Shown: positions 1 to 18,218 of the stretch, piece after piece
Position numbering within the stretch: the stretch's first letter is position 1
Layout of the letters: every line of letters begins with the position of its first letter
Assembly (NCBI RefSeq): GCF_005405905.1
Contig: NZ_BJHU01000025.1
Span: 124,001 to 188,000, forward strand
Source: Acidovorax sp. NB1
Lineage (GTDB): Bacteria; Pseudomonadota; Gammaproteobacteria; Burkholderiales; Burkholderiaceae_C
Direction: 5' to 3'
Length of the DNA: 64,000 nucleotides
Translations under genes and position numbers: made by a program
The notes under the pieces: model-generated
Seen by the model: only the letters and a program-made list of their open reading frames with translations
Database searches by the model: none
Told to the model about the DNA's origin: nothing

Positions 1-622
1 CTTTGACCTTCAGGCCCTGGGCGATCTGCAGGCAGGTGTCGAGGTTGGATTTGCCGAACGCGCTGTTCTGGTAGATGACGGCAATGTTGTTAATGCCCAG
101 CGTGGCCAGATGCCCCACGATCTTGCGCAGCTCGACCTCGTAGCTGGCGCGCACGTGGAACAGGTAGCGGTTGTGCGTAGTGCGGAATGACGTGGTGCCC
201 ACCAGCGGCGCGAACATGGGCACACCCGCCTTTTCGGCGATGGGCATGGCGGCGATGAGGTTGCCGGTGGCCACGTAGCCGATCAGGGCAAACACCTTGT
301 CTTCATCAATGAGCTTGGCCGTGTTTTCGGCCGTCTTCTTGGGCTCGTAGGCATCGTCGTGCGACACCAGCTCCAGCGTGCGGCCCTGCACGCCGCCGGT
401 CTTGTTCACCTTGTCGAACGCCAGCGCAATGCCTGCCTTGTAGTCCACCCCGAAATCCTTGGCCGGGCCGGTGAACACGGCCGACTGGCCTACCTTGATG
501 CGGGTGTCTGTCACCCCGGTCTCGGCGGCTGCCGGGCCTGCGGCCCCCAGAGCAGCGGCAGCCAGGGTTGTCAGCATCACACGGCGGTCGATGCCCCCCT
601 CCTCCATCCCACGAAATTTCAT
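1..622 (-). CDS. ABC transporter substrate-binding protein, type 1 periplasmic fold (partial)
   Basis: Periplasmic binding component of a LivK-type ABC importer. Only the first 207 codons are present; the C-terminal half lies beyond the left edge. The ATG at 622 has AAGGAG six bases upstream. The N-terminus has a twin-arginine-like signal (DRRVMLTTLAAAALG, residues 12-26) followed by an Ala-rich cleavage zone, so export is expected and Tat use is possible. The mature start (TDTRIKVGQSAVFTGPAKD) is typical of the family. It is the last visible gene of the leftward operon that begins at the 6-hydroxynicotinate reductase homologue, 120 bp after the nicotinamidase-like gene. It is a second binding protein in the operon, distinct from the one at 5143-6354. 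The ligand is not determined by sequence. Confidence 0.88.
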   Translation of the reverse strand, partial: MKFRGMEEGGIDRRVMLTTLAAAALGAAGPAAAETGVTDTRIKVGQSAVFTGPAKDFGVDYKAGIALAFDKVNKTGGVQGRTLELVSHDDAYEPKKTAENTAKLIDEDKVFALIGYVATGNLIAAMPIAEKAGVPMFAPLVGTTSFRTTHNRYLFHVRASYEVELRKIVGHLATLGINNIAVIYQNSAFGKSNLDTCLQIAQGLKVK

Positions 623-742
623 GAAACGCTCCTTACATCAAGTGCGCAAGTTTCCCTGCAAGCGGAGCGGCTGCGCAACCATTTCTGCGGGGTGTTGTGA
701 ATCCGTCAAACCCCGGCGCGCAAGCACCGGGGCGGGGCGCCA

Positions 743-1468
743 TCAGGCGACGTCGATATCGCTGGACTGGATGCGTTTGACGCCCTTGGCCTTCATGTTC
801 TTCCAGGCCGCGTCGAGCGATCCGTTGAGGTCGATGGCGCGGGTGGCGTCTTCGACCACATAGGTTTCAAAGCCCAGGCGTTTGGCGTCGAGCGCCGTCC
901 AGGCCACGCAGAAGTCGGTGGCCAGACCCGTGACGAACACGGTCTTGATGCCACGCTGCTTGAGGTAACCGGCCAGGCCGGTGGAGGTCTTGCGGTCGGC
1001 CTCTTCAAAGGCCGAGTAGCTGTCCACATGCTGATGAAAGCCCTTGCGCAAGATCACCTGGGCCTTAGGCACCTTGAGGTCCTTGTGCAGGGCGGCGTCG
1101 TCGGTGCCCTGCACGCAATGATCGGGCCACAGCACCTGCTGGCCGTAACTGAGCTTGGTGGTTTCAAACGGCTTCTTGCCTGCATGGGTGCTGGCGAACG
1201 AGGCGTGACCCTGGGTGTGCCAGTCCTGCGTGACCACCACGTTCTCAAACGCTGTGGCGATGCGGTTGATGACGGGCACCACCTCATCCCCCTTGGCTAC
1301 GGGCAGCGTACCGCCAGGGACAAAGCAGTTCTGCACATCGACCACGATGAGCGCCGCTCGCTCACCGGGTTTGATCTTGCCTGCAGCCCAGCTGGCAGGG
1401 AAGCTGACCCCGGCCACGGTGAGCGCGGCCGATTGAAGAAGAAAGCGACGACGTTGCGCAGTTTGCAT
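743..1468 (-). CDS. Exported nicotinamidase/isochorismatase-family amidohydrolase
   Basis: Cysteine hydrolase of the isochorismatase superfamily, closest in motif pattern to nicotinamidase (PncA), which hydrolyses nicotinamide to nicotinate and ammonia. The catalytic triad candidates are D44 (VVDVQNCF), K142 (ILRKGFH) and C187 (ATDFCV). The metal site is D82-W-H84 with H88 and H95, and the WPDHCVQGT signature is present. Unlike cytoplasmic PncA it has a signal-like N-terminus with QRRRFLLQS, a twin-arginine motif, then a hydrophobic stretch ending SWA-A. I chose the ATG at 1468, eight bases after GGAG, because the upstream in-frame GTG at 1477 abuts that Shine-Dalgarno. It lies 75 bp after the importer ATPase in the ring-cleavage operon, so periplasmic release of nicotinate from nicotinamide is plausible. 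The substrate is inferred. Confidence 0.85.
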   Translation of the reverse strand: MQTAQRRRFLLQSAALTVAGVSFPASWAAGKIKPGERAALIVVDVQNCFVPGGTLPVAKGDEVVPVINRIATAFENVVVTQDWHTQGHASFASTHAGKKPFETTKLSYGQQVLWPDHCVQGTDDAALHKDLKVPKAQVILRKGFHQHVDSYSAFEEADRKTSTGLAGYLKQRGIKTVFVTGLATDFCVAWTALDAKRLGFETYVVEDATRAIDLNGSLDAAWKNMKAKGVKRIQSSDIDVA

Positions 1469-1543
1469 GGTGAACACTCCGGTTGGGAACGCACTGACAC
1501 ATCGGCCACGGCCCGGTAAGGCCAGGGCCGGGGAACTTCTTCT

Positions 1544-2293
1544 TCAGACGCTGAGGTAGGCGCGCCGCACCTCGTCGTTGGCGGCCAGCTCTTCCATGCT
1601 GGCCTGGTAGCGAATCTGGCCCTTTTCGAGCACATAGGCGCGGTCGGACACCAGCTCGGCAAAGTGCATGTTCTGCTCGGACAGCAGGATGCTCACGCCC
1701 TGCTCTTTCAGCTCCAAGATCATGTGCGCCATCTGCTCCACGATCACCGGGGCCACACCTTCAGAGGGCTCGTCCAACAGCACCAGATACGGATTGCCCA
1801 TGAGCGTGCGGGCCACCGTGAGCATCTGCTGCTCACCGCCACTCATGCGGCCGCCGGGGCGCTGGGGCATCTCGCCCAGGTTGGGGAAGAGCTTGAACAG
1901 GCGCTCGGGCGTCCACACCGGGGCAGCCGTGCCGTCGGGCCAGGTGCGGGCGGGCTGGCGGCCCACTTCCAGGTTCTCCATCACCGTGAGGTCGGTGAAC
2001 ACGCGGCGGTCTTCGGGCACAAAGCCCAGGCCCAGGCGCGCGGCGTCGTGCGGGTCGCTTTTGGAGAGGTCGCGGCCCATGAACTGGATGCTGCCCTTGC
2101 GTTTGGCCAGCATGCCCATCAACGTCTTGAGCGTGGTGGACTTGCCTGCGCCGTTGCGGCCCATCAGGGCCACGACTTCGCCACGCCGCACGTCCAGGTC
2201 CACGTCGTACAGAATTTGCGCGGCACCATACCAGGCCTGCAGGCCCTTGGCCTGGAGCAGCAGTTCTTTGGGGTTGTGGGTCGTCATGGTCAT
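1544..2293 (-). CDS. Branched-chain-type ABC transporter ATP-binding protein (LivF-like)
   Basis: Cytoplasmic ATPase of the importer encoded with the three genes upstream. The 249-residue length fits LivF. Walker A is GRNGAGKST, the ABC signature is MSGGEQQ and Walker B is LVLLDEPSEG. The start codon overlaps the stop of the LivG-like gene (ATGA, 2290-2293), so the two ATPases are translationally coupled. The family carries branched-chain amino acids, but many members carry aromatic or heterocyclic carboxylates and amides. Its place in the operon of the reductase and nicotinamidase homologues makes an N-heterocycle or its amide the better guess here. Confidence 0.93.
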   Translation of the reverse strand: MTMTTHNPKELLLQAKGLQAWYGAAQILYDVDLDVRRGEVVALMGRNGAGKSTTLKTLMGMLAKRKGSIQFMGRDLSKSDPHDAARLGLGFVPEDRRVFTDLTVMENLEVGRQPARTWPDGTAAPVWTPERLFKLFPNLGEMPQRPGGRMSGGEQQMLTVARTLMGNPYLVLLDEPSEGVAPVIVEQMAHMILELKEQGVSILLSEQNMHFAELVSDRAYVLEKGQIRYQASMEELAANDEVRRAYLSV

Positions 2294-3072
2294 GCCGCCT
2301 CCGCATTGGCTGCGGCTTTCTTCTCAAACGTCTTGCCGGTGCCGAAGTACACCTCCTGCACCTTGGGATGGTCGCGCAACTCCAGCGGTTTGCCCTCGGC
2401 AATCAGGCGCCCGCGCGCCAGCACGATCATGCGGTCGGCATAGGCAAACACCACGTCCATGCTGTGCTCGGTGAAGAGCACTGCCATGTGGCGGTCGATC
2501 ACCAGTTGCTTGGTCAGCGCCATGAGCTCGTTGCGCTCCTTGGGAGCCATACCGGCAGTGGGCTCGTCCATGAGCAGGAGCTTGGGGCTGTTGGCCATGG
2601 CAATCGCCAGCTCCACACGCTTCACATCGCCATAGGCCAACACGCTGCAGGGCCGGTCGGCCTGCGACTTCATGCCCACCTGGTCCAGCAGCGCCAAAGC
2701 TTCGTCGCGTTTGTGGTCTGCAGCCCTGCGCCATAGGGAGAACAGCAGACTGTCGTTGGAGATCAGTGCCATCTGCACGTTCTCCACCACCGTCAGCGAT
2801 GCAAAGGTTTCGGCGATCTGGAAGGTGCGGCCCACACCCATACGCCAGATGTCGCGCGGCTTGCGGCCCACCAGCTCCTGCCCGTTGAGCTGGATGGAAC
2901 CCGCATCGGCGGGCAGTTGGCCGTTGACCATGTTGAAGGTGGTGGACTTGCCTGCGCCATTGGGGCCGATGAGCGCCAGCAGCTCACCCGCAGCGAGTTC
3001 GAAGTGGATGCCATCCACCGCCTTCACGCCGCCAAACGATTTGCCCAGACCGGTGACTTCGAGGAGGCTCAT
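2290..3072 (-). CDS. Branched-chain-type ABC transporter ATP-binding protein (LivG-like)
   Basis: Second ATPase of the importer, 260 residues. Walker A is GPNGAGKST at about residues 36-44 and Walker B is LLLMDEPTAGM. The signature region reads VLAYGDVKR rather than LSxGxQ, which is common in the LivG branch. It overlaps the permease stop by four bases (3069-3072) and the LivF-like start by four bases, so permease, LivG and LivF form one coupled unit. The C-terminal EVYFGTGKTF is typical of LivG proteins. Confidence 0.93.
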   Translation of the reverse strand: MSLLEVTGLGKSFGGVKAVDGIHFELAAGELLALIGPNGAGKSTTFNMVNGQLPADAGSIQLNGQELVGRKPRDIWRMGVGRTFQIAETFASLTVVENVQMALISNDSLLFSLWRRAADHKRDEALALLDQVGMKSQADRPCSVLAYGDVKRVELAIAMANSPKLLLMDEPTAGMAPKERNELMALTKQLVIDRHMAVLFTEHSMDVVFAYADRMIVLARGRLIAEGKPLELRDHPKVQEVYFGTGKTFEKKAAANAEAA

Positions 3073-4976
3073 GCCGTGCCCTCCTTGGTGTTCTTGGCGT
3101 CGCGCATGTTGTCAAAAATCTGCTTGATGGTGCCCGCGATACCCTGTGGAAACAGCAGCACCAGGATGAGGATGATGGCGCCCAGCATGGCGCGCCAGTA
3201 GTCGGTGTTGCGCGCCACGGTGTCGTGCAGCCAGGTGAAGGTGACCGCGCCCACCACGGGACCAGCCAGCGTCTGGATGCCGCCCAGCAGCACCATCACC
3301 AACCCATCCACCGATTTGCCCACGGCAAGCGACTCCGGCGAAATGCTGCCCTTGGAGAACGCATACAGCGCCCCTGCCAGCCCTGCCGCTGTGCCCGCCA
3401 CCACAAACGCCGCCCACTGCATGCGCTTGACGTCGATGCCGATGGCATCGGCCCGCAGCACAGAGTCGCGCCCTGCGCGCAGCGCATAGCCAAACGGTGA
3501 GAACAGCACACGGCGCAGCCACCACACCCCCGCTCCCACCAGTGCCAGCGTGAGCCAGTAATACATGCGCTTGTCTGCCAGCCAGGCTGCAGGCCAGACA
3601 CCCGTCAGGCCGTTGCTGCCCCCCGTGAAACTGTCCCACTGGTAGGTGATGGCCCAGGTGATCTGGGCGAAGGCCAGCGTTAGCATGGCGAGGTACACAC
3701 CCGACAGCCGCACCGCAAACCAGCCGTAGACAAACGCACCGACCGCCGCCACCAGCGGCGCCACCACCAGTGCGAGTTCCATGGGTAGCCCGAGCGAACG
3801 CACCAGCAGGGCCGCGCCATAGGCGCCCAGCCCGAAGTAGGCAGCATGGCCGAAGGAGTGCATGCCCGCAGGCCCCATGATGAAGTGAAGGCTGGCCGCA
3901 AACAGCGCTGCGATCAGCAGGTCGATCAGCAGCACCGTGGTGTACGGCGACTGTGCGGTGAGCACCGGCGCTGCTGCCAGCAGCAGGCCCAGCACCGCAG
4001 CCGCCACCAGGTAAGCCTTACCCGGGCGACGCAGCGGCTCCTCCTGCATACCCACGTAGCGGCTGGGTGCCTGCGGCCGGCCGAACAGGCCCCACGGACG
4101 CCAGACCAGCACCACCGCCATCACAAGAAAATCCACCACCAGCGTCAGCTTGGAAAACGAAACACTCAGGCCAAACACATCGACCACACCCAGCCAGATG
4201 CAGATGGCCTTTATTTCGGAGATGAGCAGTGCAGCCGCGTAGGCACCGGGGATGGAGCCCATGCCACCCACCACCACCACCACGAAGGCGGCACCGATGG
4301 TGTGCAAATCCATCTCCAGCGTGGCGGGCTCGCGCGGCAGTTGCAGTGCGCCACCCAGCCCGGCCAGCATCGCGCCCAGCGCGAACACGGCCGTGAACAA
4401 CCAGGCCTGGTTGACGCCCAGGGCGCTCACCATCTCGCGGTCTTGCGTGGCGGCGCGCACCAGCGTGCCAAACCGGGTGCGCGTGAGCAGCAGCCAGACG
4501 GCACCCAGCACCAGCGGACCGACCACGATGAGGAACAGGTCGTAGCTGGGGAACTGCCGCCCCAGCAGGCTGACGGAACCCGAAAGACCCGGCGCGCGTG
4601 GGCCCAGCAGTTCGTCGGGGCCCCAAAGCCACAACACCGCGTCCTTGATGACCAGCACCAGGGCAAACGTGGCCAGCAGCTGGAACAGCTCGGGTGCCTT
4701 ATAGATGCGGCGCAGCAGCACCACTTCGATCAGCGCCCCGAGCACGCCAACGATCAGCGCGGCCAGCGGCAAGGCCACCCAGAAGCCCAGGGCACCGCTC
4801 AGGCGCTCGACCAGCGAGTACGCAACATAGATGCCCACCATGAAGAACGAACCATGGGCAAAGTTCACGATGCGGGTCACGCCAAAGATCAGCGACAAAC
4901 CCGCCGCCACGAGGAACAGCGACGACGCACTCGCCAGCCCGTTGATGAGCTGGACGATGAAACCCGAAAAACTCAT
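3069..4976 (-). CDS. Fused LivH-LivM branched-chain-type ABC permease
   Basis: Inner-membrane channel of the importer. At 635 residues it is about twice the usual size because both permease subunits are in one chain. The N-terminal half (about 1-295) begins like LivH (FIVQLINGLASASSLFLVA, then GLSLIFGVTRIVNFAHGSF). A hydrophilic linker at about 295-320 leads into a LivM half containing FGLGAYGAALLVRSLG and GVYLAMLTLAFAQI. Each half has many hydrophobic helices. The 166 bp between this gene and the upstream binding protein contain no ORF. The fusion gives a single-gene heterodimer equivalent; such fusions are known in this family but less common than separate genes. Confidence 0.92.
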   Translation of the reverse strand: MSFSGFIVQLINGLASASSLFLVAAGLSLIFGVTRIVNFAHGSFFMVGIYVAYSLVERLSGALGFWVALPLAALIVGVLGALIEVVLLRRIYKAPELFQLLATFALVLVIKDAVLWLWGPDELLGPRAPGLSGSVSLLGRQFPSYDLFLIVVGPLVLGAVWLLLTRTRFGTLVRAATQDREMVSALGVNQAWLFTAVFALGAMLAGLGGALQLPREPATLEMDLHTIGAAFVVVVVGGMGSIPGAYAAALLISEIKAICIWLGVVDVFGLSVSFSKLTLVVDFLVMAVVLVWRPWGLFGRPQAPSRYVGMQEEPLRRPGKAYLVAAAVLGLLLAAAPVLTAQSPYTTVLLIDLLIAALFAASLHFIMGPAGMHSFGHAAYFGLGAYGAALLVRSLGLPMELALVVAPLVAAVGAFVYGWFAVRLSGVYLAMLTLAFAQITWAITYQWDSFTGGSNGLTGVWPAAWLADKRMYYWLTLALVGAGVWWLRRVLFSPFGYALRAGRDSVLRADAIGIDVKRMQWAAFVVAGTAAGLAGALYAFSKGSISPESLAVGKSVDGLVMVLLGGIQTLAGPVVGAVTFTWLHDTVARNTDYWRAMLGAIILILVLLFPQGIAGTIKQIFDNMRDAKNTKEGTA

Positions 4977-5142
4977 GTTCGATACACCCTGTAGGGCCTG
5001 TTCACACTGTTTTTGCCAGCGCGAAGGCCATGAAAGAAGCCGGCCGTGCTCCAGCCAACACCCGCAGAACCGGGCGGTGCCGGACTGCAGGTAGCGTCTG
5101 CCGGGACCGAGGCGCGGCAGGCGCCTCAGACCTCAGAGGGAA

Positions 5143-6354
5143 TCAATCAGCGCTTCGCGACTTCTTCACGTCGGCTGCGGACGGCTGGTACTTGGCATCG
5201 GCGCCATCCAGGTAGACGTAATCCACCATCACGCCCTTGCCGCCTTCGTTCTTGGTGCGACCGACAAACGCGCCCATGGTGGCCTGGTGGTCTTCAGGAC
5301 GGTAGGTGATCTTGCCAAATGGGGTGTCCACCTGCAGACCTTTGAAGGCTGCGACCAGCTTGTCGGTGTCGGTGCTCTTGGCCTTGGCAATACCGGCAGC
5401 AGCCGACTTGATCATGCTGTAGCCCACCACCGAGCCCAGGCGCGGGTAGTCCTTGAACTTGGCCTGGTACGCCTGCTCGAACGCCTTGTGTGCGGGGGTG
5501 TTGATGCCGTACCAGGGATAGCCGGTCACCAGCCAGCCGGTGGGGGCCTCGTCTTTCAGGGGGTCCATGTATTCGGGCTCGCCCGTCAACACGCTGACCA
5601 CCTCGATGCCCTTGAAAAGGCCGCGCGTGTTGCCTTCGCGCACGAACTTCGACAGGTCCGCGCCAAACAACACGTTGAAGACGGCGTCGGGCTTGGCATC
5701 CGACAGCGCTTGCACGACGCTGCCTGCGTCCACCCGGCCTAGCGGCGTGGCTTGCTCGGCCACAAACTCCACGTCGGGCTGGGCGGCCTTGAGCAGTTGC
5801 TTGAACGCCGCCACGGCAGACTGCCCGTACTCGTAGTTGGGGTAGACCACGGCCCAGCGCTTTTTCTTCATCTTGGCGGCCTCAGGCACCAGCATGGCGG
5901 CCTGCATGTAGGTGCCGGGGCGCAGGCGGAAGGTGTATTGGTTGCCACCTTGCCAGGTCATCTTGTCGGTCAGCGGCTCGCCAGCCAGGAAGAAAAACTT
6001 CTTCTGCTTGGCGAAGTCGGCCACCGCCAGACCGGTGTTCGACAGGAAGGTGCCAGCCAGCACATCGACCTTCTCGCGCGACACCAGCTCTTCGGCCACA
6101 CGAACTGCGTCGCCGGGGTTGGCGTTGTCGTCGCGCGTGATCAGTTCGATCTTCTTGCCATTGACGCCGCCCGCAGCGTTGATCTCATCGACCGCCAGCT
6201 CCATGCCTTTCTTGTAGGGCTCCAGGAAAGCGGGCTGCGCCTTGTAGCTGTTGACCTCGCCAATCTTGATCACGCCCTGGGCAAAAACAGGGGCCAGGGT
6301 AAGGGCCAATGCAGCCGCAGCCGTGGCACGCATGAGGTTTCGTCGCATCGTCAT
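5143..6354 (-). CDS. ABC transporter substrate-binding protein (LivK-like)
   Basis: Periplasmic ligand-binding protein, 403 residues, type 1 periplasmic fold. The signal peptide spans residues 1-25 (RRNLMRATAAAALALTLAP, cleavage near VFA-Q). The mature protein starts VIKIGEVNSYKAQPAFLEPY and has the family's GxELAVDEINAAGGVNGKK segment. The ATG at 6354 has AGGAG six bases upstream. It lies 80 bp after a DUF1185 gene and 166 bp before the fused permease, so it is the natural partner of that permease. The ligand is unknown; operon context points to a pyridine carboxylate, its amide or a ring-cleavage product rather than leucine. Confidence 0.92.
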   Translation of the reverse strand: MTMRRNLMRATAAAALALTLAPVFAQGVIKIGEVNSYKAQPAFLEPYKKGMELAVDEINAAGGVNGKKIELITRDDNANPGDAVRVAEELVSREKVDVLAGTFLSNTGLAVADFAKQKKFFFLAGEPLTDKMTWQGGNQYTFRLRPGTYMQAAMLVPEAAKMKKKRWAVVYPNYEYGQSAVAAFKQLLKAAQPDVEFVAEQATPLGRVDAGSVVQALSDAKPDAVFNVLFGADLSKFVREGNTRGLFKGIEVVSVLTGEPEYMDPLKDEAPTGWLVTGYPWYGINTPAHKAFEQAYQAKFKDYPRLGSVVGYSMIKSAAAGIAKAKSTDTDKLVAAFKGLQVDTPFGKITYRPEDHQATMGAFVGRTKNEGGKGVMVDYVYLDGADAKYQPSAADVKKSRSAD

Positions 6355-6434
6355 GGGGAGACTCCTGAAGGATGGTTGGAGAGAGATCGAACGGGGGTGA
6401 GACAGGACAGGTGTGTGTTGTACGCGCGCTGGGC

Positions 6435-7019
6435 TCAGCGCAGGCCGTCAACGCCTTTTATTTCAGAGGCCGTGAGGCCGCCGACACGTGGCAACGGCCG
6501 CCCGCTGTCGGTCACGACAACGGCCACCACGATTTCATTGGCCCGCGGGGCATCGGCTACACGGGCTTCCATGGCGTCGAAATGGCTGCGCACGTAAGCC
6601 GCATCCTTGTGGCCCAGGGGCACGTCGATGGCCGTGCCGAGGCCGCCCATCTTCTTGCTGGATGGGACCAACGCGGCACCCTTCTCGACAGCCACACGCA
6701 GTGGTGCGCCCAGCTTGGGGTGGAGGATGGCGGCGGCGTGCTCCAGCTCGCCCGCCTCGCCCACGATGGCGGCCTTGCCGTAGCTGTGCGCATCGCCCGG
6801 GGCAATGCCCAGGGCCTGCACGCAGCGGGCGCCCAGAAGGCCTCCCAGCTCCTCACCGATGGCGATGAGTTCGTCGAGGTTTTCCACATAACGTCCGGCA
6901 AAGGGGTTCTCGATCACGGCCATGGCCAGCGCCTTGCGCACCGGGGGCTGAACGTCACGCCCCATTTCCACGCGGACCTCGTCGGTCTGCACAATGATCT
7001 TTCGAATCTTGGCTGGCAT
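6435..7019 (-). CDS. DUF1185 (PF06684, 'amino acid synthesis') family protein, paralogue 1
   Basis: A 194-residue cytoplasmic protein of the DUF1185 family. As I recall, the family has a chorismate-mutase-like fold and no firmly assigned reaction. It shares with the next gene NPFAGRY, YGKxAIVGxAGELEH, KKxGGxGxAxDVPLxH and YVRSHFDAxExRV, a block rich in Lys, His, Asp and Glu that could form an active site. The ATG at 7019 has a strong AAGGAG upstream. It sits 55 bp after its paralogue and 80 bp before the importer genes. The context suggests an enzyme acting on a ring-cleavage intermediate, but no reaction can be assigned from sequence. Confidence 0.9.
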   Translation of the reverse strand: MPAKIRKIIVQTDEVRVEMGRDVQPPVRKALAMAVIENPFAGRYVENLDELIAIGEELGGLLGARCVQALGIAPGDAHSYGKAAIVGEAGELEHAAAILHPKLGAPLRVAVEKGAALVPSSKKMGGLGTAIDVPLGHKDAAYVRSHFDAMEARVADAPRANEIVVAVVVTDSGRPLPRVGGLTASEIKGVDGLR

Positions 7020-7074
7020 TTTTTGGCTCCTTGGGATCTTGTCTTGTTCGATGGTGTGCGGGTCGGCGGACGGC

Positions 7075-7716
7075 TCAGCGCAGGCCGTTCCACTGGCTGA
7101 TGTCTGCCGCCTTGAGCCCTCCGACGCGGGCGTGGATGCGCGGGCCCGTGGTCATGGCAAGTATGAACACGATCTCATCAGCGGATGGCGCGCCCGGAAC
7201 ACGCACTTCGATCGCGTCGAAATGGCTGCGTACGTAGCTGGCGTTGATGTGGGTGAGCGGCACATCCAGCGCTGCACCGGGGCCACCCACCTTCTTGGTG
7301 GAAGGCACGATAGACAGTGCATTGGCGGGTTGCCCGGTCTTCTCTTCGGCCAGGCCCTTGGCGTAGGCGTTGCGGTCGCCCTTCCAGCCCAGCAGTTCGC
7401 GCATGGCGTAGCCGCCGGGCACATGCCACAGCGCACCGTGTTCCAGCTCACCCGCCGCGCCCACGATGGCACCCTTGCCGTAGGTCTCGATGCGCTCGGC
7501 GGGCACGCCCATGGCCTTCAGGAGGCGCTGGGCCATGTCCAGCCCCACGTCCTGCAGCGCGTCCATCATGGGGAGGATGTCGGGCTCGTACCGTCCCGCA
7601 AACGGGTTGGTCAGCACCGCGCCGATGGCGCCGCGCAGCAGCGGCACGTCGGCCACCGGCCCGAATTCGTGCCGGATTTCCTCAAGATGGGTGAAAACGC
7701 GTCGTATCTGGATCAT
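7075..7716 (-). CDS. DUF1185 (PF06684) family protein, paralogue 2
   Basis: A 213-residue paralogue of the adjacent 6435-7019 product, with the same NPFAGRY, YGKGAIVGAAGELEH, KKVGGPGAALDVPL and YVRSHFDAIEVRV segments. It carries an extra insertion (about residues 100-125, containing LGWKGDRNAYAKGLAEEK) absent from the shorter paralogue. It begins 21 bp after the UPF0280 gene. Two diverged copies side by side suggest a hetero-oligomer or two successive steps. No signal peptide or membrane segment is visible. The function is unknown. Confidence 0.9.
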   Translation of the reverse strand: MIQIRRVFTHLEEIRHEFGPVADVPLLRGAIGAVLTNPFAGRYEPDILPMMDALQDVGLDMAQRLLKAMGVPAERIETYGKGAIVGAAGELEHGALWHVPGGYAMRELLGWKGDRNAYAKGLAEEKTGQPANALSIVPSTKKVGGPGAALDVPLTHINASYVRSHFDAIEVRVPGAPSADEIVFILAMTTGPRIHARVGGLKAADISQWNGLR

Positions 7717-7737
7717 TCTGGAGACCTGTGCATTTCG

Positions 7738-8670
7738 TTAAGCAAATACTGAACCAACTTCCGATTCCACCGCCGGATCCCGGGGCCATACCGCATCCGC
7801 CAGCGCCTGAGGCGCCGAGGTCGCCACCCACTGCCCTTGGCACGCCAGCAGTGCAAACCACAGCAGGCCGCCGGACTGCAATTCTTGCGCCTTTTGCAGC
7901 CCCTGGTGCAAGGCCTGGCGCACCGACTCTTCAGGCAAGGCAGGGACATCCACCGTGACGGGAATGGCCCCCAGGTCACTGTCGTCCCGCACCTGCCACG
8001 CTGGCCTGCGGACGATTCGCACATCGGCTACATCCACAGCATTCGCCACGATGGTCGCCGCCGCATCGGCCTGCGCCGCTGTGCGCGCCAGCACCGTCAC
8101 GCTGTCGGCAATTCCCAGCGACTGGCTGCGCCCGCGCCAGCCACTGGTGGCCACACCGCGCACCGGCATGGCGCTGTCGATGCTGATCTTTCCATCCAGT
8201 ACCAGGCCGTTGCACAACTGTGCAGCGTTCAGTGCGGCAATGTCAGCGTACACCCCCACCGTGATCGACTGGCCGGGCGCCAGGTGCAGCGCAATGTCGC
8301 CGCCGTTGTTGACCCACGCGCGGTCTATGCCCGGCTGTTCGTAGCAGGTCAGAATCTCCTGCGCCACCGCGCCCGCCACCGCCGCCATCGATGTGATGAA
8401 ACCTGCGCGATAGGGGCTGCAGGCGGCCCACATGCGGCGCGCCACCACGCCCTGCAACGTGCAGTGCGCGCCCACTGGCGCCCGCAAGCCGGGAAGTTCA
8501 TTCACCAGCTCCTGCAGCAGCCCGTCAAAACGCTGCCACGCGCGCTCGTGCGCCAGGTCTACGGCGTCGCGCGCCCCTTCAGCCTGGAGGATGAGGTCCA
8601 TCGGGCCATGCTGGAAATGCCAGCGGCCATCGGACAGGAGATTGCGGCAAGCGTTCACAGCACGGCTCAC
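7738..8670 (-). CDS. UPF0280 family protein (ApbE-like fold), candidate flavin transferase
   Basis: A 310-residue protein matching the UPF0280 family, which from memory is structurally related to ApbE, the FAD:protein FMN transferase. Recognisable blocks are SDGRWHFQHGPMDLIL near residue 13, VAGAVAQEIL, AWVNNGGDIALHL, GVATSGWRGRSQSLGIADSV and a C-terminal LWFALLACQGQWVATSAPQ. The GTG at 8670 directly abuts the TAA of the reductase gene (8671-8673), implying tight translational coupling. Since 6-hydroxynicotinate reductase is reported to carry covalent flavin, an ApbE-like neighbour fits a maturation role. That role is inference; the family itself is well recognised. Confidence 0.88.
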   Translation of the reverse strand: MSRAVNACRNLLSDGRWHFQHGPMDLILQAEGARDAVDLAHERAWQRFDGLLQELVNELPGLRAPVGAHCTLQGVVARRMWAACSPYRAGFITSMAAVAGAVAQEILTCYEQPGIDRAWVNNGGDIALHLAPGQSITVGVYADIAALNAAQLCNGLVLDGKISIDSAMPVRGVATSGWRGRSQSLGIADSVTVLARTAAQADAAATIVANAVDVADVRIVRRPAWQVRDDSDLGAIPVTVDVPALPEESVRQALHQGLQKAQELQSGGLLWFALLACQGQWVATSAPQALADAVWPRDPAVESEVGSVFA

Positions 8671-10290
8671 TTAGCCCAGCAGGGGAGGACGACCCAGCGG
8701 CCAAGGGTTGGCCGCGGGCAAGGTTTGCCACACGCGCGCCTGCGGTGCACCGTCGTTGTGCCACGCACCGCGCTCCAGTACGTCGCGCAGGCTGCGGACC
8801 TGTTCTGTGTGGCCGCCCAGCGCTTCGTAGTCCGCGCGGCGCATGCTGAACTCAATGGGTGCCACGATGGCGGGCGTGGGCACGGTGCCAAAGCTGTTGT
8901 CCGGCATGCGAAGCACATCCGCCATCACGGTGATACCGCCGCCCGGCCACACATAGGCGGGGGCACCACCACAGGTCACGTTGACCAGCGCGTTCTTGAT
9001 GGAGCGGGTAAGCAGCACCGGGTTTTCGGTAACCCCTGCGCGCAGGCTGCCGCCTGCACCGCCGAGGAACAGCACGGAGGCGAGCGAGGGCTCGCAGTTT
9101 TCGCCAATGCGGTCCACGATGCGTCGCACCTCGGCAGGCATCTCGGCCTCGACCGGATGGAGTTGCTCGTCCAGCACGTACCAGGAGGCATGTTCCCCGG
9201 TGGTGGAGGTCATCAACAGGCGCAGCCCTGGCCAGGCCACGGATTCATCCCAGCCCTCGATGATGGACAGCGGGTCGGCAATGTCGGTGCCGCCCCAGCC
9301 GGTGCCCGGGTTGGCCACCTGAAAGTAGCGGCCCGGCGTGGACTTGCGACCGCGCATCTGGATGCCCGAGGGCTTCATGTCCAGACAGCGACCCGCCTGG
9401 TGTTCGGTGAGCACGCCGGTGATGTGGTCGTCCACAACCACCACCTCGTCTGCATGACCGAAGAACTGGCGCGCAAAGATGCCAATCGCCGCCGAGCCGC
9501 AACCGACGCGCATGCGCTGCTCGGCCACACCGTTGACGATGGGTGCGCACCCTGCCTGAATCACGAGCTGCGAGCCACCGTCGATGGTGAACTCCACGGC
9601 CTGCTTGTTGCCCAGCGCCTGCATCATCTCGGCGGTGATGCGGCCTTCCTTCTTGGTGCCACCCGTGAGGTGGTGCACGCCGCCCAGCGACAGCATCTGC
9701 GAGCCGTACTCCGCCGTGGTCACATGGCCCACCACCTCACCCTTGCAGCGCACGTTGGCCTGTTCGGAGCCGAGGAAGCGGTCGGTGTCGATCTTCACCT
9801 TGAAGCTGCAGTAGCTGAAGATGCCCTCGGTGACCACGGTGACCATGTCCACGCCATCGGTTTTGGAGCCCACGATGAAGGGCGCAGGCTTGTAGTCGGG
9901 ATAGGTGGTGGACGAGCCCACGCCTGTCACGAACACCTCTTCAGACAGCAGCAGATCGCCATTCCATGCGGGTTCTGTAGCCACGTCGGCATCAGCGCCT
10001 TCTACAGCCGGGGCGCGGCCCGCAAATGGCACCAACGTGGCCTCGCCCGCCTCCAGCGTCTTGCGCAACAACACCACCGGGTCCAGCCGCACGAGCACGC
10101 CCGCCTGGTTGGCGTAACGGTCGCACGCACCTGCGCGGCCTTCGGAAATCTGGCACAGCACCGGGCACGCATTGCACTCGACCTTGGCAGCGTTCATGCG
10201 CTCGTTGCGCGGACGGGCACGCTCCAGCACCTGCGGCAGATCTGGCGCATCCATGCCCGGCAGCCCATCGGTCTTGGTGTGTTCAGTCAT
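8671..10290 (-). CDS. hnr: 6-hydroxynicotinate reductase-like iron-sulfur flavoenzyme
   Basis: A 539-residue homologue of 6-hydroxynicotinate reductase, which reduces 6-hydroxynicotinate to 1,4,5,6-tetrahydro-6-oxonicotinate with ferredoxin as donor in nicotinate fermentation. Near the N-terminus C39, C42, C46 and C56 (ECNACPVLC, then GACDRY) form a CxxCxxxCx9C cluster-binding motif. Other conserved-looking blocks are GVGSSTTYPDYKPAPFIVGS, EGIFSYCSFKVKIDTDRF, GGVHHLTGGTKKEGR and WPGGGITVMADVLRMP. I placed the start at ATG 10290; the longer frame to 10353 would begin inside an operator-like inverted repeat and lacks a Shine-Dalgarno. It is the first gene of the leftward operon and is divergent from a ferredoxin and a ferredoxin reductase. 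The exact heterocycle reduced is inferred. Confidence 0.85.
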   Translation of the reverse strand: MTEHTKTDGLPGMDAPDLPQVLERARPRNERMNAAKVECNACPVLCQISEGRAGACDRYANQAGVLVRLDPVVLLRKTLEAGEATLVPFAGRAPAVEGADADVATEPAWNGDLLLSEEVFVTGVGSSTTYPDYKPAPFIVGSKTDGVDMVTVVTEGIFSYCSFKVKIDTDRFLGSEQANVRCKGEVVGHVTTAEYGSQMLSLGGVHHLTGGTKKEGRITAEMMQALGNKQAVEFTIDGGSQLVIQAGCAPIVNGVAEQRMRVGCGSAAIGIFARQFFGHADEVVVVDDHITGVLTEHQAGRCLDMKPSGIQMRGRKSTPGRYFQVANPGTGWGGTDIADPLSIIEGWDESVAWPGLRLLMTSTTGEHASWYVLDEQLHPVEAEMPAEVRRIVDRIGENCEPSLASVLFLGGAGGSLRAGVTENPVLLTRSIKNALVNVTCGGAPAYVWPGGGITVMADVLRMPDNSFGTVPTPAIVAPIEFSMRRADYEALGGHTEQVRSLRDVLERGAWHNDGAPQARVWQTLPAANPWPLGRPPLLG

Positions 10291-10347
10291 CGTGGCGACC
10301 CATTCATTGCATTGTTGCAAGTGCTTGTACGCGCTTTGCATTTTGTG

Positions 10348-10399
10348 TAGCATTCACTTAACTTAAATGTTGTGAACACTACATTTGATGTCAATGTAG
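10348..10399. promoter_or_regulatory. Divergent promoter/operator region with inverted repeats
   Basis: An AT-rich island between the divergent reductase and ferredoxin genes. It contains a perfect 7-bp inverted repeat with 7-bp spacer, CTACATT (10379-10385) and AATGTAG (10393-10399), and a second weaker pair, TTCAC (10353-10357) and GTGAA (10372-10376). This is the natural target for the TetR-family protein encoded at 11692-12414. Promoter hexamers cannot be assigned confidently. Confidence 0.6.
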
Positions 10400-10465
10400 C
10401 GGAATCATTCAGACTCTGCAATGGTGTTTTCGCACCCCCAAAAACGGTGCACGAGGAGCCCCAAA

Positions 10466-10795
10466 ATGACGCACGTTGTGACGGACGCCTGCATTCGGTG
10501 CAAGTACACCGACTGCGTCGATGTGTGCCCTGTGGACTGCTTCAAGGAGGGGCCAGAGTTCCTGGTGATCGACCCCGACGAATGCATCGACTGCGCGGTG
10601 TGCATTCCCGAATGCCCGGTGAACGCGATCTATGCCGAGGACGACCTGCCAGAGGGCATGGAAATCTTCCTGGAATTCAACAAAAAGCAGGCCCCCGCGC
10701 TGCCCCCAATCACCAAAAGAAAAGCGGCTTTGCCAGATGCGGAACAATGGAGGGTTGTGAGCCACAAGCTTTCCGGGCTGAACATCGCGCCCTGA
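10466..10795 (+). CDS. fdxA: 7Fe ferredoxin (FdxA-type, [3Fe-4S][4Fe-4S])
   Basis: A small electron carrier of 109 residues closely following the Azotobacter ferredoxin I pattern. The first cluster motif is [14 protein letters not shown] and the second [12 protein letters not shown], giving one 3Fe-4S and one 4Fe-4S cluster. The [12 protein letters not shown] linker and the long C-terminal tail ([14 protein letters not shown]) are typical. The ATG at 10466 has GAGGAG 7-12 bases upstream. It lies first in the rightward arm, with the NADP-dependent reductase next and the reductase homologue across the divergent promoter. It is the obvious electron donor to that enzyme. Confidence 0.93.
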
Positions 10796-10864
10796 CGCCT
10801 CCAGCCCCAGCCTTTCAGCCAGCTTTTTCGCCTCATTTCTCAACTTTTAGCCGACGAAATCACC

Positions 10865-11641
10865 ATGAGCGCCTTTCTTGAAGAACGCGTCCTCTCCGTG
10901 CACCACTGGACGGACCGCCTTTTCTCCTTCACCACCACACGCGACACCGCGCTGCGCTTCTCCAACGGCCATTTCACGATGATTGGCCTGCGCGGCGAGA
11001 ACGGCAAACCCCTGCTGCGCGCCTACAGCATTGCCAGCGCCAACTACGAAGAACACCTGGAGTTCCTGTCGATCAAGGTGCCGGACGGCCCGCTGACCTC
11101 GCGCCTGCAGCACATTCAGGTGGGTGACACCATCGTGGTGGGCAAGAAGCCCACCGGCACGCTGCTGATCGACTACCTGCTGCCTGCCAAGCGGCTGTAC
11201 ATGCTCTCTACCGGCACGGGCGTGGCCCCGTTCCTGAGCCTGATGCGCGACCCCGAGACCTACGAGAAGTTCGAAGAGGTCATCCTGGTGCACGGCGTGC
11301 GCGAAGTGAAGGAACTGGCCTACCACGACTACATCACCGAAGAGTTGCCAAAGCACGAGTTCCTGGGCGAGATCGTCTCCAAGCAACTCAAGTACTACCC
11401 CACCGTGACCCGCGAGCCCTTCAAGAACCAGGGCCGCGTGACCACCGTGATCGAAAACGGCCAGCTCGCCCGCGACCTGGGCCTGCCCGCGCTCAACCCC
11501 GCTGAAGACCGCGTGATGATCTGCGGCAGTCCCGAGATGCTGCGCGACCTCAAGCACATGATGGAAGAGCGCGGCTTCAAGGAAGGCAACACCACGAAGC
11601 CGGGTGACTTCGTGATCGAACGCGCGTTCGCAGAGCAGTGA
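10865..11641 (+). CDS. fpr: Ferredoxin--NADP(+) reductase
   Basis: A 258-residue FAD enzyme of the bacterial Fpr family, moving electrons between NADPH and ferredoxin. The FAD-binding motif RAYSIAS is at about 52-58, the NADP-domain STGTGVAPFLS at about 115-125, and MICGSPEML lies in the C-terminal half. The C-terminus (DFVIERAFAEQ) is typical of the Azotobacter-like subclass. It follows fdxA by 69 bp and is probably co-transcribed. With fdxA it forms a dedicated NADPH-to-ferredoxin supply for the 6-hydroxynicotinate reductase homologue. The start codon lacks a strong Shine-Dalgarno. Confidence 0.94.
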   Translation: MSAFLEERVLSVHHWTDRLFSFTTTRDTALRFSNGHFTMIGLRGENGKPLLRAYSIASANYEEHLEFLSIKVPDGPLTSRLQHIQVGDTIVVGKKPTGTLLIDYLLPAKRLYMLSTGTGVAPFLSLMRDPETYEKFEEVILVHGVREVKELAYHDYITEELPKHEFLGEIVSKQLKYYPTVTREPFKNQGRVTTVIENGQLARDLGLPALNPAEDRVMICGSPEMLRDLKHMMEERGFKEGNTTKPGDFVIERAFAEQ

Positions 11642-11691
11642 TCCCCGGCGGCCCCCGCCCTGGGGGCCCGCCTCATCCACCAGGACCCGCC

Positions 11692-12414
11692 ATGTCTGCC
11701 ACTCCCACCAAGACCCGGACCGCGTCCCCCCGCACAGCCTCTGCCCGCAAGACGGGCGTGCGCGAGCAGGCCGCACAGACCACGCGCGACAACATCCTGA
11801 AAGCGGCGACCAAGGTGTTCGCCCGCTACGGCTACGAAGGCGGCAGCGTGGAGAAGATCTCCAAGGCGGCCAAGTCCTTCGACCGGATGATCTACTACTA
11901 CTTCGGCAGCAAGGAAGGCCTGTTCATCGAGGTGCTGGAGGAAACCTACCGGCGCATGAACGATGCCGAGTCCAAGCTCGACCTGGACACCGCCCGGCCC
12001 GTCGAGGCACTGCAGGCCGTGATCCGCTTTGTGGTGGGCTACTACCGCAAGAACCCCGAGTTCATCACGCTGCTCAACACCGAGAACCTGCACAAGGGCA
12101 AGCACATCTCCAAGTCGATGCGCGCCCGCGAATATTCATCGCCCGCCATCGAGGTGATCCGCCGCGTGCTGGAGAGCGGCCAAGCGCAGGGCCTGTTCCG
12201 CAAGGATGTGTCGGCGCGCGATGTGTACCTGCTGATCGCCGCCACGGGCTACTTCTACATGTCCAACCGGCACACGCTGTCGGCCTTTCTGGGCGAGGAC
12301 CTGGAAACGCCCGAGGCCCTGGCGCACTGGGAGTCGTTCGTCATCGACAGCGTGCTGCGCACCGTGGCGCCCGGCCCCAACCTGCCCAAGGGCAAGGTGA
12401 CAGCAGCGGCCTGA
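11692..12414 (+). CDS. TetR/AcrR-family transcriptional regulator
   Basis: A 240-residue regulator. After a basic Ser/Thr-rich leader (residues 1-22), a TetR helix-turn-helix spans about 30-75 (TRDNILKAATKVFARYGYEG, then YYYFGSKEGLF). The C-terminal ligand domain contains RFVVGYYRKNPEFITLLNTE. I chose ATG 11692; an upstream in-frame start would add a Pro/Gly-rich leader overlapping fpr. It sits between fpr and the enamidase gene in the rightward arm, so it likely controls the divergent promoter at about 10.35-10.40 kb. The ligand is probably the substrate or a pathway intermediate. Confidence 0.9.
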   Translation: MSATPTKTRTASPRTASARKTGVREQAAQTTRDNILKAATKVFARYGYEGGSVEKISKAAKSFDRMIYYYFGSKEGLFIEVLEETYRRMNDAESKLDLDTARPVEALQAVIRFVVGYYRKNPEFITLLNTENLHKGKHISKSMRAREYSSPAIEVIRRVLESGQAQGLFRKDVSARDVYLLIAATGYFYMSNRHTLSAFLGEDLETPEALAHWESFVIDSVLRTVAPGPNLPKGKVTAAA

Positions 12415-12482
12415 ATCGACAAGAGATTTTTCCCTGCGGAGTGCCGCGCGGCGCCCCGCCCACCACCCCACGAGGAGAATCC

Positions 12483-13670
12483 ATGGCAGAAGCAGCAGCC
12501 GGCGGCAAGTCGGGCAAAGTCGTCATCCAGAACATCGGTCTTTTGTTGTCGGGCGATCTGGATCGCCCCATCCTCGACGCCGACACCATTGTGGTGAACG
12601 ACGGCCTCATCGTGGCCGTGGGCCGCTACAAGGACTGCGACACCGACCACGCCAACACCGTGATCGATGCACGCCAGACCTGCGTGGCGCCGGGCCTGAT
12701 CGACAGCCACGTGCACCCCGTGTTTGGCGACTGGACGCCGCGCCAGAACCAGATTGGGTGGATCGACTCCACCATGAACGGCGGCGTGACCACCATGGTC
12801 TCGGCCGGTGAAGTGCACCTGCCCGGCCGCCCCAAGGACATCGTGGGCCTCAAGGCCCTGGCCATCACCGCGCAGCGTTCGTTCGACAACTTCCGCCCCG
12901 GTGGCGTGAAGGTGATCGCGGGCGCCCCGGTCATCGAAAAAGGCATGACCGAGCAGGACTTCAAGGACCTCGCAGACGCGGGCGTCACGCTGCTGGGCGA
13001 AGTGGGGCTGGGCTCCGTCAAGGCGGGCTACGAGGCCCAGCAGATGGTGGCCTGGGCGCGCAAGCACGGCATCCAGAGCACCATCCATACCGGTGGTCCG
13101 TCCATTCCGGGCTCGGGGCTGATCGACAAGGACGTGGTGCTGGAGGCCGATGCCGACGTGATCGGCCACATCAACGGCGGCCACACCTCGCTGCCCTGGA
13201 AACATGTGTGCGAGCTGTGCGAGAAGTCGTCCCGCGCTATCGAGCTGGTGCACAACGGCAACGAGAAGATCGCCATCCAGGCCGCGCGCGCGGCCATCGA
13301 ACTCAAGTGCCCGCACCGCGTGATTCTGGGCACCGATGGGCCAGCGGGCTCGGGCGTGCAGCCGCTGGGCATGCTGCGCATGATTGCGTTGATTTCCAGC
13401 TTTGCCGACATCCCTGCCGAGCTGGTGTTCTGCTTTGCCACAGGCAACACGGCGCGCATCCGCAACCTGAACTGTGGCCTGGTCGAAGTGGGCCGCGCGG
13501 CCGACTTTGTGTTCATGGACCGGGCCCAGCACACTGCGGGCGCCACGCTGTTGGAGAGCGTTCAGCTGGGCGACATCCCGGGCATTGGCATGGTCATGAT
13601 CGACGGCCTGGTGCGCTGCGGCCGCAGCCGCAACACGCCGCCTGCGACCGAGATTCCGGTGGTGCTGTAA
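12483..13670 (+). CDS. ena: Enamidase-like amidohydrolase (ring opening)
   Basis: A 395-residue amidohydrolase-superfamily enzyme resembling enamidase, which hydrolyses 1,4,5,6-tetrahydro-6-oxonicotinate to 2-formylglutarate and ammonia. Metal-ligand candidates are H76-x-H78 (DSHVHP), E173 (LGEVGLG), H202 (STIHTGG), H229 (IGHINGG) and D285 (LGTDGPAGSG). Further enamidase-like stretches are KVVIQNIGLLLSGD, GGVTTMVSAGE plus LPGRPKD, and a C-terminal SRNTPPA. The ATG at 12483 has a good GAGGAG upstream. It is the last gene of the rightward arm and is followed by a strong terminator. Pairing with the reductase homologue strongly supports a two-step reduce-then-hydrolyse route. Confidence 0.88.
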   Translation: MAEAAAGGKSGKVVIQNIGLLLSGDLDRPILDADTIVVNDGLIVAVGRYKDCDTDHANTVIDARQTCVAPGLIDSHVHPVFGDWTPRQNQIGWIDSTMNGGVTTMVSAGEVHLPGRPKDIVGLKALAITAQRSFDNFRPGGVKVIAGAPVIEKGMTEQDFKDLADAGVTLLGEVGLGSVKAGYEAQQMVAWARKHGIQSTIHTGGPSIPGSGLIDKDVVLEADADVIGHINGGHTSLPWKHVCELCEKSSRAIELVHNGNEKIAIQAARAAIELKCPHRVILGTDGPAGSGVQPLGMLRMIALISSFADIPAELVFCFATGNTARIRNLNCGLVEVGRAADFVFMDRAQHTAGATLLESVQLGDIPGIGMVMIDGLVRCGRSRNTPPATEIPVVL

Positions 13671-13696
13671 CCCGCTAGTCAGTCACCAGCAGCGAC

Positions 13697-13727
13697 AAAA
13701 AAAAGCCCGCGTTTGCGGGCTTTTTTC
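13697..13727. terminator. Bidirectional rho-independent terminator
   Basis: A perfect GCCCGC/GCGGGC stem with GTTT loop (13705-13720), flanked by an A-run on the left and a T-run on the right, so it can act in both directions. It separates the convergent enamidase gene and glycine-zipper gene. Confidence 0.92.
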
Positions 13728-13744
13728 TGGGGAAAACGACTGGC

Positions 13745-16991: not shown

Positions 16992-18218
<1,227 letters not shown>

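Follow-up and report, generated by a model that had tools for sequence, protein, structure and literature searches.

A two-armed locus of Acidovorax sp. NB1 with the gene content of reductive nicotinate-type ring opening, and candidate roles for its UPF0280 and DUF1185 proteins

At the start of the 64-kb (64,000-nucleotide) window of Acidovorax sp. NB1 DNA analysed here, positions 1–13670 carry two divergent gene arms. The minus-strand arm encodes a homologue of 6-hydroxynicotinate reductase (Hnr), a UPF0280 protein, two DUF1185 proteins, a Liv-type importer and a nicotinamidase, and the plus-strand arm encodes a ferredoxin, a ferredoxin-NADP reductase homologue (Fpr), a TetR-family regulator and an enamidase homologue. 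This is the inventory of an earlier sequence-only reading, and every gene in it proved to be an intact open reading frame at, or very near, the place assigned to it.

The importer genes, all on the minus strand, comprise a LivK-type substrate-binding protein (5143–6354; PF13458), a LivH-LivM permease fused into one open reading frame of 635 aa (3069–4976; PF02653 in two stretches, with the UrtB, UrtC, LivM and LivH models matching below their cut-offs), and the ABC ATPases LivG (2290–3072; PF00005, PF12399) and LivF (1544–2293; PF00005). They are followed on the same strand by the nicotinamidase of the isochorismatase family (743–1477; NF008623, 190.8 bits, cut-off 174), whose N-terminus, RRRFLLQSAA, resembles a twin-arginine motif when judged by eye. 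A second periplasmic binding protein is encoded at 2–622 on the minus strand; 207 aa of its open frame fall within the window, and the frame continues past the window start, in the direction of nicA, to L002:19150. In several relatives, LivK-like matches likewise lie between livF or the nicotinamidase gene and nicA/nicB. The molybdenum hydroxylase, previously held to be missing or encoded elsewhere, is in fact close at hand: the hnr strand of this contig carries NicA-like and NicB-like frames whose ends lie approximately 0.6 and 0.9 kb ahead of window base 1. Among relatives with enough flank, 60 of 62 encode a molybdenum hydroxylase subunit.

Hnr (8671–10290, minus strand; 539 aa) is the only match of its kind in the whole genome. 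Searches of Pfam, NCBIfam and PDB with this protein returned zero matches, and it owes its name to plasmid homologues of 56–81% identity, many of which are annotated as 6-hydroxynicotinate reductase. A scan confirmed at least 592 relatives, and 80 named hnr loci were surveyed, with denominators below varying with the number of loci having enough flank. The start at 10290 is backed by these relatives, since the protein begins with MTEHTKTDGL in 48 of the 80 named loci and with MTEH, MNEH, MAEH or MTVH in 70. Seven cysteines (C39, C42, C46, C56, C161, C264 and C399) are invariant across nine sequences and may ligate Fe-S clusters. The predicted structure is poor (pLDDT 63), and a fold search with this low-confidence model gave no match at E 0.001. 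For the homologue of strain SG-6C, 42% identity to Hnr of Eubacterium barkeri is given in the published account (PMC3511419).

The plus-strand arm begins with a ferredoxin, FdxA (10466–10795; NF045490, above cut-off), and Fpr (10865–11641), which falls below the NF008178 cut-off (156 against 390 bits) yet has both domains, PF00175 and PF00970. A private Fpr–ferredoxin electron chain had been proposed for this locus, an idea that the survey weakens: 51 of 70 loci have an fpr gene no more than 2.6 kb upstream of hnr, but only 16 of 73 have an FdxA-like gene within 1.6 kb, a count that a more diverged ferredoxin would escape. The TetR-family regulator (11692–12414, plus strand; PF00440, PF17938) has RutR as its best NCBIfam match, under the cut-off. 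Between the arms lies an operator-like palindrome, CTACATT-N7-AATGTAG (10379–10399), which has no other match in the window and none in 100 shuffles; 28 of 81 loci, the window included, have its exact arms at a spacing of 5–9 upstream of hnr. The regulator probably represses both arms from this putative operator.

The plus-strand gene at 12483–13670 encodes the enamidase homologue, to which the solved enamidase 2VUN aligns full-length (E 1.5e-108 over residues 11–391) with the H-x-H metal motif present. We surveyed 249 Pseudomonadota genomes, in which Hnr is present in 18 and absent from 231. Reductase and enamidase occur together in 10 of the 18 Hnr genomes (eight with enamidase only and two that also have a caprolactamase-like HyuB); the remaining eight have such a HyuB and no close enamidase, and none has neither. 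Ten further records or genomes divide equally, five with enamidase only and five with HyuB only, none having both or neither. The nearest named relative of this HyuAB is the two-subunit ATP-dependent caprolactamase CapAB of Pseudomonas jessenii (PMC8453981), although HyuAB of the relatives misses the NCBIfam equivalog cut-offs for CapA/CapB (482.5 and 309.2 against 1000 bits), its substrate would be 1,4,5,6-tetrahydro-6-oxonicotinate (THON), and it was not found in the Acidovorax cluster. We propose that caprolactamase-like HyuAB probably replaces the enamidase in many relatives outside the betaproteobacteria. Alternatively, a diverged amidohydrolase might open the ring in the hyuB-only genomes and HyuAB belong to another lactam pathway: the E cut of 1e-60 in the enamidase search would let distant amidohydrolases escape, HyuB lies away from hnr in G051, G071, G197 and G139 (by 1.4 Mb in G139), and hyuA and hyuB are not adjacent in G139 or in G016, where they flank hnr on opposite sides. 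We regard this as unlikely, given that every Hnr genome has at least one of the two ring openers, that several loci have HyuAB close to hnr, UPF0280 or DUF1185, and that fpr adjoins hyuAB in all seven genomes of one genus, even far from hnr, an arrangement resembling the Acidovorax run of enamidase with fpr and tetR.

The co-occurrence of hnr, a ring-opening gene, a molybdenum hydroxylase and an importer is that of the proteobacterial THON-type cluster, and the locus, counted together with the nicAB genes beyond the window edge, is very probably a nicotinamide/nicotinate catabolic cluster with ring opening via THON. Gene families, their conservation and a glutaryl-CoA dehydrogenase can be read from the DNA; from these we infer substrate, electron flow, order of steps and regulation. 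In the proposed pathway, (i) the nicotinamidase would convert nicotinamide to nicotinate, which the Liv-type importer would take up; (ii) the NicAB-like Mo/2Fe-2S/cytochrome c hydroxylase would form 6-hydroxynicotinate; (iii) Hnr would reduce this to THON with electrons passing from NADPH via Fpr and a ferredoxin; and (iv) the enamidase would open the THON ring, yielding 2-formylglutarate and ammonia. Decarboxylation would most likely follow, taking the carbon to glutarate semialdehyde and on to glutarate and glutaryl-CoA, in place of the B12 route known from E. barkeri. The sequence-only reading had posited a reductive nicotinate-type module with its own importer, which is supported, and later steps that differ from those of E. 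barkeri or are encoded elsewhere; of these, a difference is probable. The genome encodes a glutaryl-CoA dehydrogenase (746 bits to 3D6B), and none of the genes at 1–13670 is a B12 mutase gene. It is highly improbable that the nicotinate names are merely inherited from annotation and that the cluster degrades another N-heterocycle, for instance a pyrazine or a pyridine carboxylate that is chlorinated or otherwise substituted. That reading would suit the lack of a curated model for Hnr, a NicB-like protein far under the cut-off of every NCBIfam model matched, and a molybdenum hydroxylase that varies among clusters between a NicB type and a CoxM plus MoXdh type; however, the Acidovorax cluster contains an equivalog-level nicotinamidase, as does the neighbourhood of hnr in 3/3 hyuB-only genomes tested, 32 of the 62 loci whose downstream flank is long enough have a nicotinamidase, and growth experiments with strain SG-6C, which has such a cluster, showed degradation of nicotinate and 6-hydroxynicotinate (PMC3511419).

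Adjoining hnr is the gene for UPF0280 (7738–8670, minus strand; NF003322, 388 bits, cut-off 290), a family found in 18/18 Hnr genomes and 0/231 others, always adjacent to hnr on the same strand, 24–549 bp apart by match ends, and in all 79 named loci whose flank is long enough; distant relatives below the family cut-off occur in two methanogens, which lay outside the Hnr search. Its predicted structure (pLDDT 90) has the ApbE fold, with VIA Z-scores of 19.5 to 2O34 and 15.9 to Ftp (4IG1), the ApbE-type structure of highest Z, titled a bifunctional FMN transferase/FAD pyrophosphatase. With the flavin transferases ApbE, Ftp and FmnB, UPF0280 shares the G-G-D and T-S-G motifs as well as the fold, and its D-A-x-x-T motif (D-A-x-A-T in common; D202 in 28/28 and T206 in 93% of 28 sequences), which we take to be the metal-site motif, aligns with that of ApbE. 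Unlike them, it has no signal peptide by eye, and the H-x-IDPxTG segment of ApbE is absent from it in a profile alignment with four ApbE proteins. This segment presumably houses the catalytic histidine, His257 of Vibrio cholerae ApbE. The histidine is described as the general base in PMC12052999. The partner Hnr also departs from the targets of these transferases, as D-x-x-[ST]-G-A-[ST] occurs in 0/80 named-locus Hnr proteins and in none of the window's cluster proteins. We see an even chance that UPF0280 matures the flavin of Hnr or attaches it. The missing histidine segment and target motif, the similarity to Ftp and an ordinary ApbE encoded in the same genome are also consistent with a tentative alternative, in which UPF0280 attaches nothing covalently and serves Hnr as a chaperone or, in the manner of Treponema Ftp, as an FAD pyrophosphatase or a source of FMN. 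Hnr of E. barkeri, however, is said to contain a covalent flavin (attributed to Alhapel, 2006), which that alternative would have to explain, and the one-to-one partnership with Hnr suits a target-specific modifier.

Both DUF1185 proteins, DUF1185b (6435–7019) and DUF1185a (7075–7716, a separate clade by tree), are encoded on the minus strand and pass the PF06684 (AA_synth) cut-off of 27 bits (243 and 228.6 bits). Among named hnr loci with enough flank, DUF1185b occurs in 71/71 and DUF1185a in 65/71; DUF1185b is present in all ten genomes having both Hnr and enamidase, and DUF1185 accompanies either ring opener in 17 of 18 Hnr genomes, the exception being G139. It also occurs in 17 genomes without Hnr, and in G238 it adjoins an enamidase homologue without Hnr. 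The family includes TgnF (trigonelline, Acinetobacter baylyi) and HcdD (umbelliferone, Pseudomonas mandelii), likewise placed with ring-cleavage genes (PMC7913881), whereas Acidovorax has two paralogues of separate clades, beside an enamidase here and HyuAB in relatives. This family membership and the association with both ring openers suggest that the proteins work on the product of ring opening, and we consider it plausible, at somewhat below even confidence, that they process the enamine or 2-formylglutarate. More doubtful is a role as accessory or stability factors of ring-cleaving or dehydrogenase enzymes: TgnF is described as stimulating TgnE-dependent oxidation, the authors of the HcdD work sought an effect and found none (PMC7913881), and G139 manages without DUF1185, but charged residues conserved to more than 90% in each of three groups (K82, E91, E93, H94, R108, R144, E162, R174 and R178, counted from the aligned DUF1185b fragment) could form a dicarboxylate pocket. 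DUF1185b is a close homologue of the solved 2QTP (E 6.7e-89), for whose family a part in amino-acid metabolism has been suggested in print (PMC2954203); if the processing role is true, 2QTP is the structure of a nicotinate-pathway protein.

A joint reading, which we hold to be distinctly unlikely in its entirety, would make UPF0280 a non-canonical ApbE-type flavin attacher dedicated to rendering Hnr active, one that relies on a different base and modifies a different target site; DUF1185/TgnF would be enamine hydrolase-decarboxylases turning 2-(aminomethylene)dicarboxylates, the kind of product shared by trigonelline and nicotinate opening, into semialdehydes; and the ring would be opened by either of two unrelated enzymes, the enamidase or an ATP-dependent THON lactamase. 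What the survey adds to the published cluster is a set of definite roles, open to experiment, for UPF0280 and DUF1185, two families that lack an informative name; a possible maturation factor, UPF0280, for a flavin/Fe-S reductase without a recognised fold; and a repeated swap between metallo-enamidase and ATP-dependent lactamase in what seems to be the same pathway.

Nicotinate fermentation in E. barkeri reportedly (Alhapel, 2006) involves Hnr, a bifunctional enamidase and a selenium enzyme. The Acidovorax locus has a putative counterpart of that Hnr and a homologue of the bifunctional enamidase (enamidase step, PMC9304392) and differs in a NicAB-like cytochrome c hydroxylase in place of the selenium enzyme, in UPF0280 and DUF1185 beside hnr, and in the glutaryl-CoA dehydrogenase of the genome. 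The module had been presented as unusual for an apparently aerobic host, but a proteobacterial THON-type nicotinate cluster, aerobes included, is already published in Azorhizobium (AZC_2804-2790), Bradyrhizobium (blr3818-3830) and SG-6C (PMC3511419), and our locus is one more member of this known pathway. Shared with those clusters are Hnr, the genes of the first three steps, the importer, the conserved unknown proteins and aerobic hosts; relative to the published map as its figure legend conveys it, the Acidovorax locus is distinguished by its two divergent arms, TetR regulator, palindrome, fused LivHM, local FdxA and nicotinamidase.

The window covers positions 124001–188000 of contig 25 in the genome of Acidovorax sp. 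NB1 (5.49 Mb). This genome contains a single match to hnr, which encodes the 6-hydroxynicotinate reductase homologue Hnr (8671–10290, minus strand) and whose closest relative among the matches listed is an Acidovorax sequence with 95–96% identity. Outward from position 10290, the minus arm comprises hnr, UPF0280 (7738–8670), DUF1185a (7075–7716), DUF1185b (6435–7019), LivK, a fused LivHM, LivG, LivF, a nicotinamidase and, extending beyond the window, a second binding protein, while the plus arm carries FdxA, Fpr, TetR and the enamidase homologue (12483–13670). The sequence-only reading had described most of these genes and deduced from them the uptake and reductive opening of a nicotinate-type ring; its gene observations were confirmed and its pathway proved correct in outline. 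The molybdenum hydroxylase step, which it had missed, is present, since the continuation of the same contig carries, on the strand of hnr, a 2Fe-2S subunit (NicA in the layout) about 0.6 kb outside the window and a molybdenum hydroxylase frame of 1311 residues with C-terminal cytochrome c domains (NicB) about 0.9 kb outside it. We did not adopt NAD salvage, another possible reading, as the cluster holds a hydroxylase, a reductase and a ring opener. The second, LivK-like binding protein (2–622), which by eye has a twin-arginine-like start, lies between the nicotinamidase and nicA, and several relatives also have a LivK-like match at the corresponding place. Two types of molybdenum hydroxylase occur beside hnr, NicB with cytochrome c versus CoxM with a fused Fe-S/Mo subunit, and these are exchanged between otherwise similar clusters (L055, L012, L017, L013 and others).

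Between the arms lies the palindrome CTACATT-N7-AATGTAG (10379–10399), the sole such match in the 64 kb and a good candidate for the TetR operator. Its exact arms, at a spacing of 5–9, precede hnr in 28 of 81 loci including the window; in the remaining 53 no such exact copy stands there. A search of 10250–10500 yielded no sigma-70 promoter, so what stands of the divergent promoter proposed earlier is the gene layout and the palindrome. No RNA element reached its gathering score within 1–20000.

Conservation was assessed in the 80 best-scoring of the named hnr loci, which by title come nearly all from Burkholderiales or other betaproteobacteria and are therefore not independent. By bit-score and distance cuts of our choosing, and among loci whose flank is long enough, UPF0280 comes after hnr in 79/79 (two readings, L075 and L078, contain a stop codon), and DUF1185b is found in 71/71, DUF1185a in 65/71, LivHM in 63/64, an upstream TetR in 59/64 and a molybdenum hydroxylase subunit in 60/62. 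The enamidase lies within 10 kb in 50/52, the remaining two carrying it elsewhere in the genome. Fpr is close upstream in 51/70, a nicotinamidase occurs in 32/62 and the ferredoxin in 16/73. An SDR, an acyl-CoA dehydrogenase and a CoA ligase at 16–20 kb were weighed as candidates for later steps and dropped for poor recurrence in relatives' loci: at E 1e-20, the acyl-CoA dehydrogenase had matches in 0/97, the CoA ligase in 2/97 (at most 29% identity) and the SDR in 6/97 (at most 41%).

The pairing of Hnr with UPF0280 is exact. Among 249 evenly drawn Pseudomonadota genomes, Hnr and the UPF0280 family NF003322 each occur in 18, and these are the identical 18 genomes (8 of 132 genera), with both genes on one strand and 24–549 bp apart by match ends. 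Two methanogen control genomes also gave NF003322 matches, though under the cut-off; other roles or partners are thus probable for the wider UPF0280 family. Hnr itself has no Pfam, NCBIfam or PDB relative that we could find; its AlphaFold2 model is poor and gave no Foldseek match at E 0.001. The Hnr of Eubacterium barkeri, whose nicotinate fermentation takes the B12 route, carries a covalent flavin. The UPF0280 model is good (pLDDT 90) and matches best the UPF0280 structure 2O34 (Z 19.5), followed exclusively by ApbE-type proteins (Ftp, Z 15.9; T. maritima ApbE, 15.3; FmnB, 14.5; V. cholerae ApbE, 14.1) before the first other fold at Z 8.0. In profile alignment with four ApbE proteins of relatives (our filter left a usable frame in 4 of 12 loci), the T-S-G and D-A-x-A-T motifs align (E 1.2e-5). 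Based on the exact pairing and the modelled fold, UPF0280 is the obvious candidate for attaching the flavin of Hnr, or for supplying or inserting flavin in another way. Against a plain transferase speak the ApbE general-base segment (the base being His257 according to PMC12052999), which is missing from UPF0280 in that alignment, the seven-residue ApbE target motif, which occurs in 0/80 Hnr proteins, and an ordinary ApbE encoded in the same genome. We do not class UPF0280 as an ApbE.

The ring-opening step appears to be shared out between two enzymes. In the 18 Hnr genomes, enamidase (search cut E 1e-60) is present at 61% identity or more in 10, and HyuB, 65–81% identical to that of a Neorhizobium cluster, likewise in 10; eight have enamidase alone, another eight HyuB alone, two carry both and none lacks both (Fisher P about 0.001 over the 18 genomes, with kinship ignored although seven belong to one genus and five to another). 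Ten further records or genomes divide into five with enamidase and five with HyuB, without overlap, and the NB1 genome has only a HyuB paralogue at 43% on another contig. The stop flagged in each HyuB of G194 and G197 gave way on re-reading to intact frames over the aligned part. Closest to HyuAB is the ATP-dependent lactamase CapA/CapB, a caprolactamase, yet the scores fall below both cut-offs. We infer that HyuAB opens 1,4,5,6-tetrahydro-6-oxonicotinate (THON), since THON is a six-membered lactam, the kind such an enzyme would open. The substrate of the HyuB-only clusters looks the same as that of the enamidase clusters, because proteins near hnr passed nicotinamidase models in all three HyuB-only genomes tested. 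One genus, represented by seven genomes, has fpr beside hyuAB in every one of them, whether hyuAB is near hnr or not, much as the enamidase of the window locus stands in one run with fpr. The genes hyuA and hyuB lie apart in G016 and G139, in the latter by about 1.4 Mb.

Of the 105 sequences collected, 56 went into an Hnr tree (the window, 16 genomes, 8 plasmid loci and 31 of the 80 named loci), with named and plasmid rows labelled from their flanks and the eight plasmid records checked as whole records. HyuAB rows fall among enamidase rows at several places, and the branches with good support cannot be explained by fewer than five changes of HyuAB label when two-enzyme rows count as a third label. 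G016 was left out, its hnr being split over two overlapping frames; this form (L195), and the two pieces in the plasmid record AP027375.1, may reflect a reductase of two subunits, a frameshift or an error in sequencing. In G123 and G194 (L193, L194), which also encode HyuAB, the enamidase lies away from hnr with its own DUF1185a/b pair. In G238, which has no Hnr match, an acyl-CoA ligase, a DUF1185 gene and an enamidase homologue (41%) stand in a row (L192:3504–6845) and may form an enamidase-like pathway with a different substrate.

Both DUF1185 copies belong to PF06684. For DUF1185b, the solved structure 2QTP is a very close match (E 6.7e-89); we take it to be SPO0826. PMC2954203, which presents the earliest DUF1185 structures (BB2672 and SPO0826), notes branched-chain transporter genes next to SPO0826 and proposes a role in amino-acid metabolism. 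In a tree of proteins from 198 places, reduced to 72, DUF1185a and DUF1185b form separate, well-supported clades apart from other PF06684 proteins. A DUF1185 is carried by 17/18 Hnr genomes: DUF1185b by 10/10 with enamidase, and DUF1185a, at hnr, by 7/8 with HyuB only, G139 being without any. This split is not absolute, as two plasmid HyuAB clusters hold both copies, and the typing covered copies at hnr or enamidase loci while several genomes have extra ones elsewhere (e.g. G035, G055, G123, G194, G197, G200, G217).

DUF1185 also occurs in 17 genomes without Hnr, where those read closely show two contexts besides others. The first comprises a luciferase-type monooxygenase, a flavin reductase, an alpha/beta hydrolase and an aldehyde dehydrogenase, varying subsets of which recur in L178, L180, L183, L189 and L190; it resembles the trigonelline (tgn) cluster and is possibly, we presume, tgn itself. 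An enamine of 2-formylsuccinate is an intermediate of trigonelline degradation; the opening of THON would yield its homologue longer by one carbon, the enamine of 2-formylglutarate, as product or intermediate. The second context (phenylpropionate-type hydroxylase, VOC protein, hydratase) recalls the umbelliferone cluster, home of the DUF1185 protein HcdD, which PMC7913881 calls homologous to TgnF of trigonelline degradation and for which its authors sought an effect and found none. We hypothesise that DUF1185 has enamines of this kind, or the formyl acid, as its substrate, which would connect the nicotinate, trigonelline and umbelliferone-like contexts and explain the course of the aerobic pathway to glutarate; the genome does encode a glutaryl-CoA dehydrogenase, which matches 3D6B at 746 bits. 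Of the three helper assignments, this one is the most speculative.

As far as the open-licence literature tells, the assignments for UPF0280, DUF1185 and HyuAB are new: we found there no published function of UPF0280 or DUF1185 in this cluster, nor HyuAB as a THON opener. Alhapel 2006 reportedly listed such genes in nine Proteobacteria already. The Azorhizobium route leads to glutarate according to PMC3511419, and PMC9304392 describes the E. barkeri enamidase as one enzyme that opens and deaminates THON to 2-formylglutarate. With a published cluster and at least 592 hnr relatives confirmed in named genomes, the cluster is a known system, common in Burkholderiales as far as the titles of the 80 best-scoring of these indicate, and the NB1 locus is an ordinary representative of this known kind.
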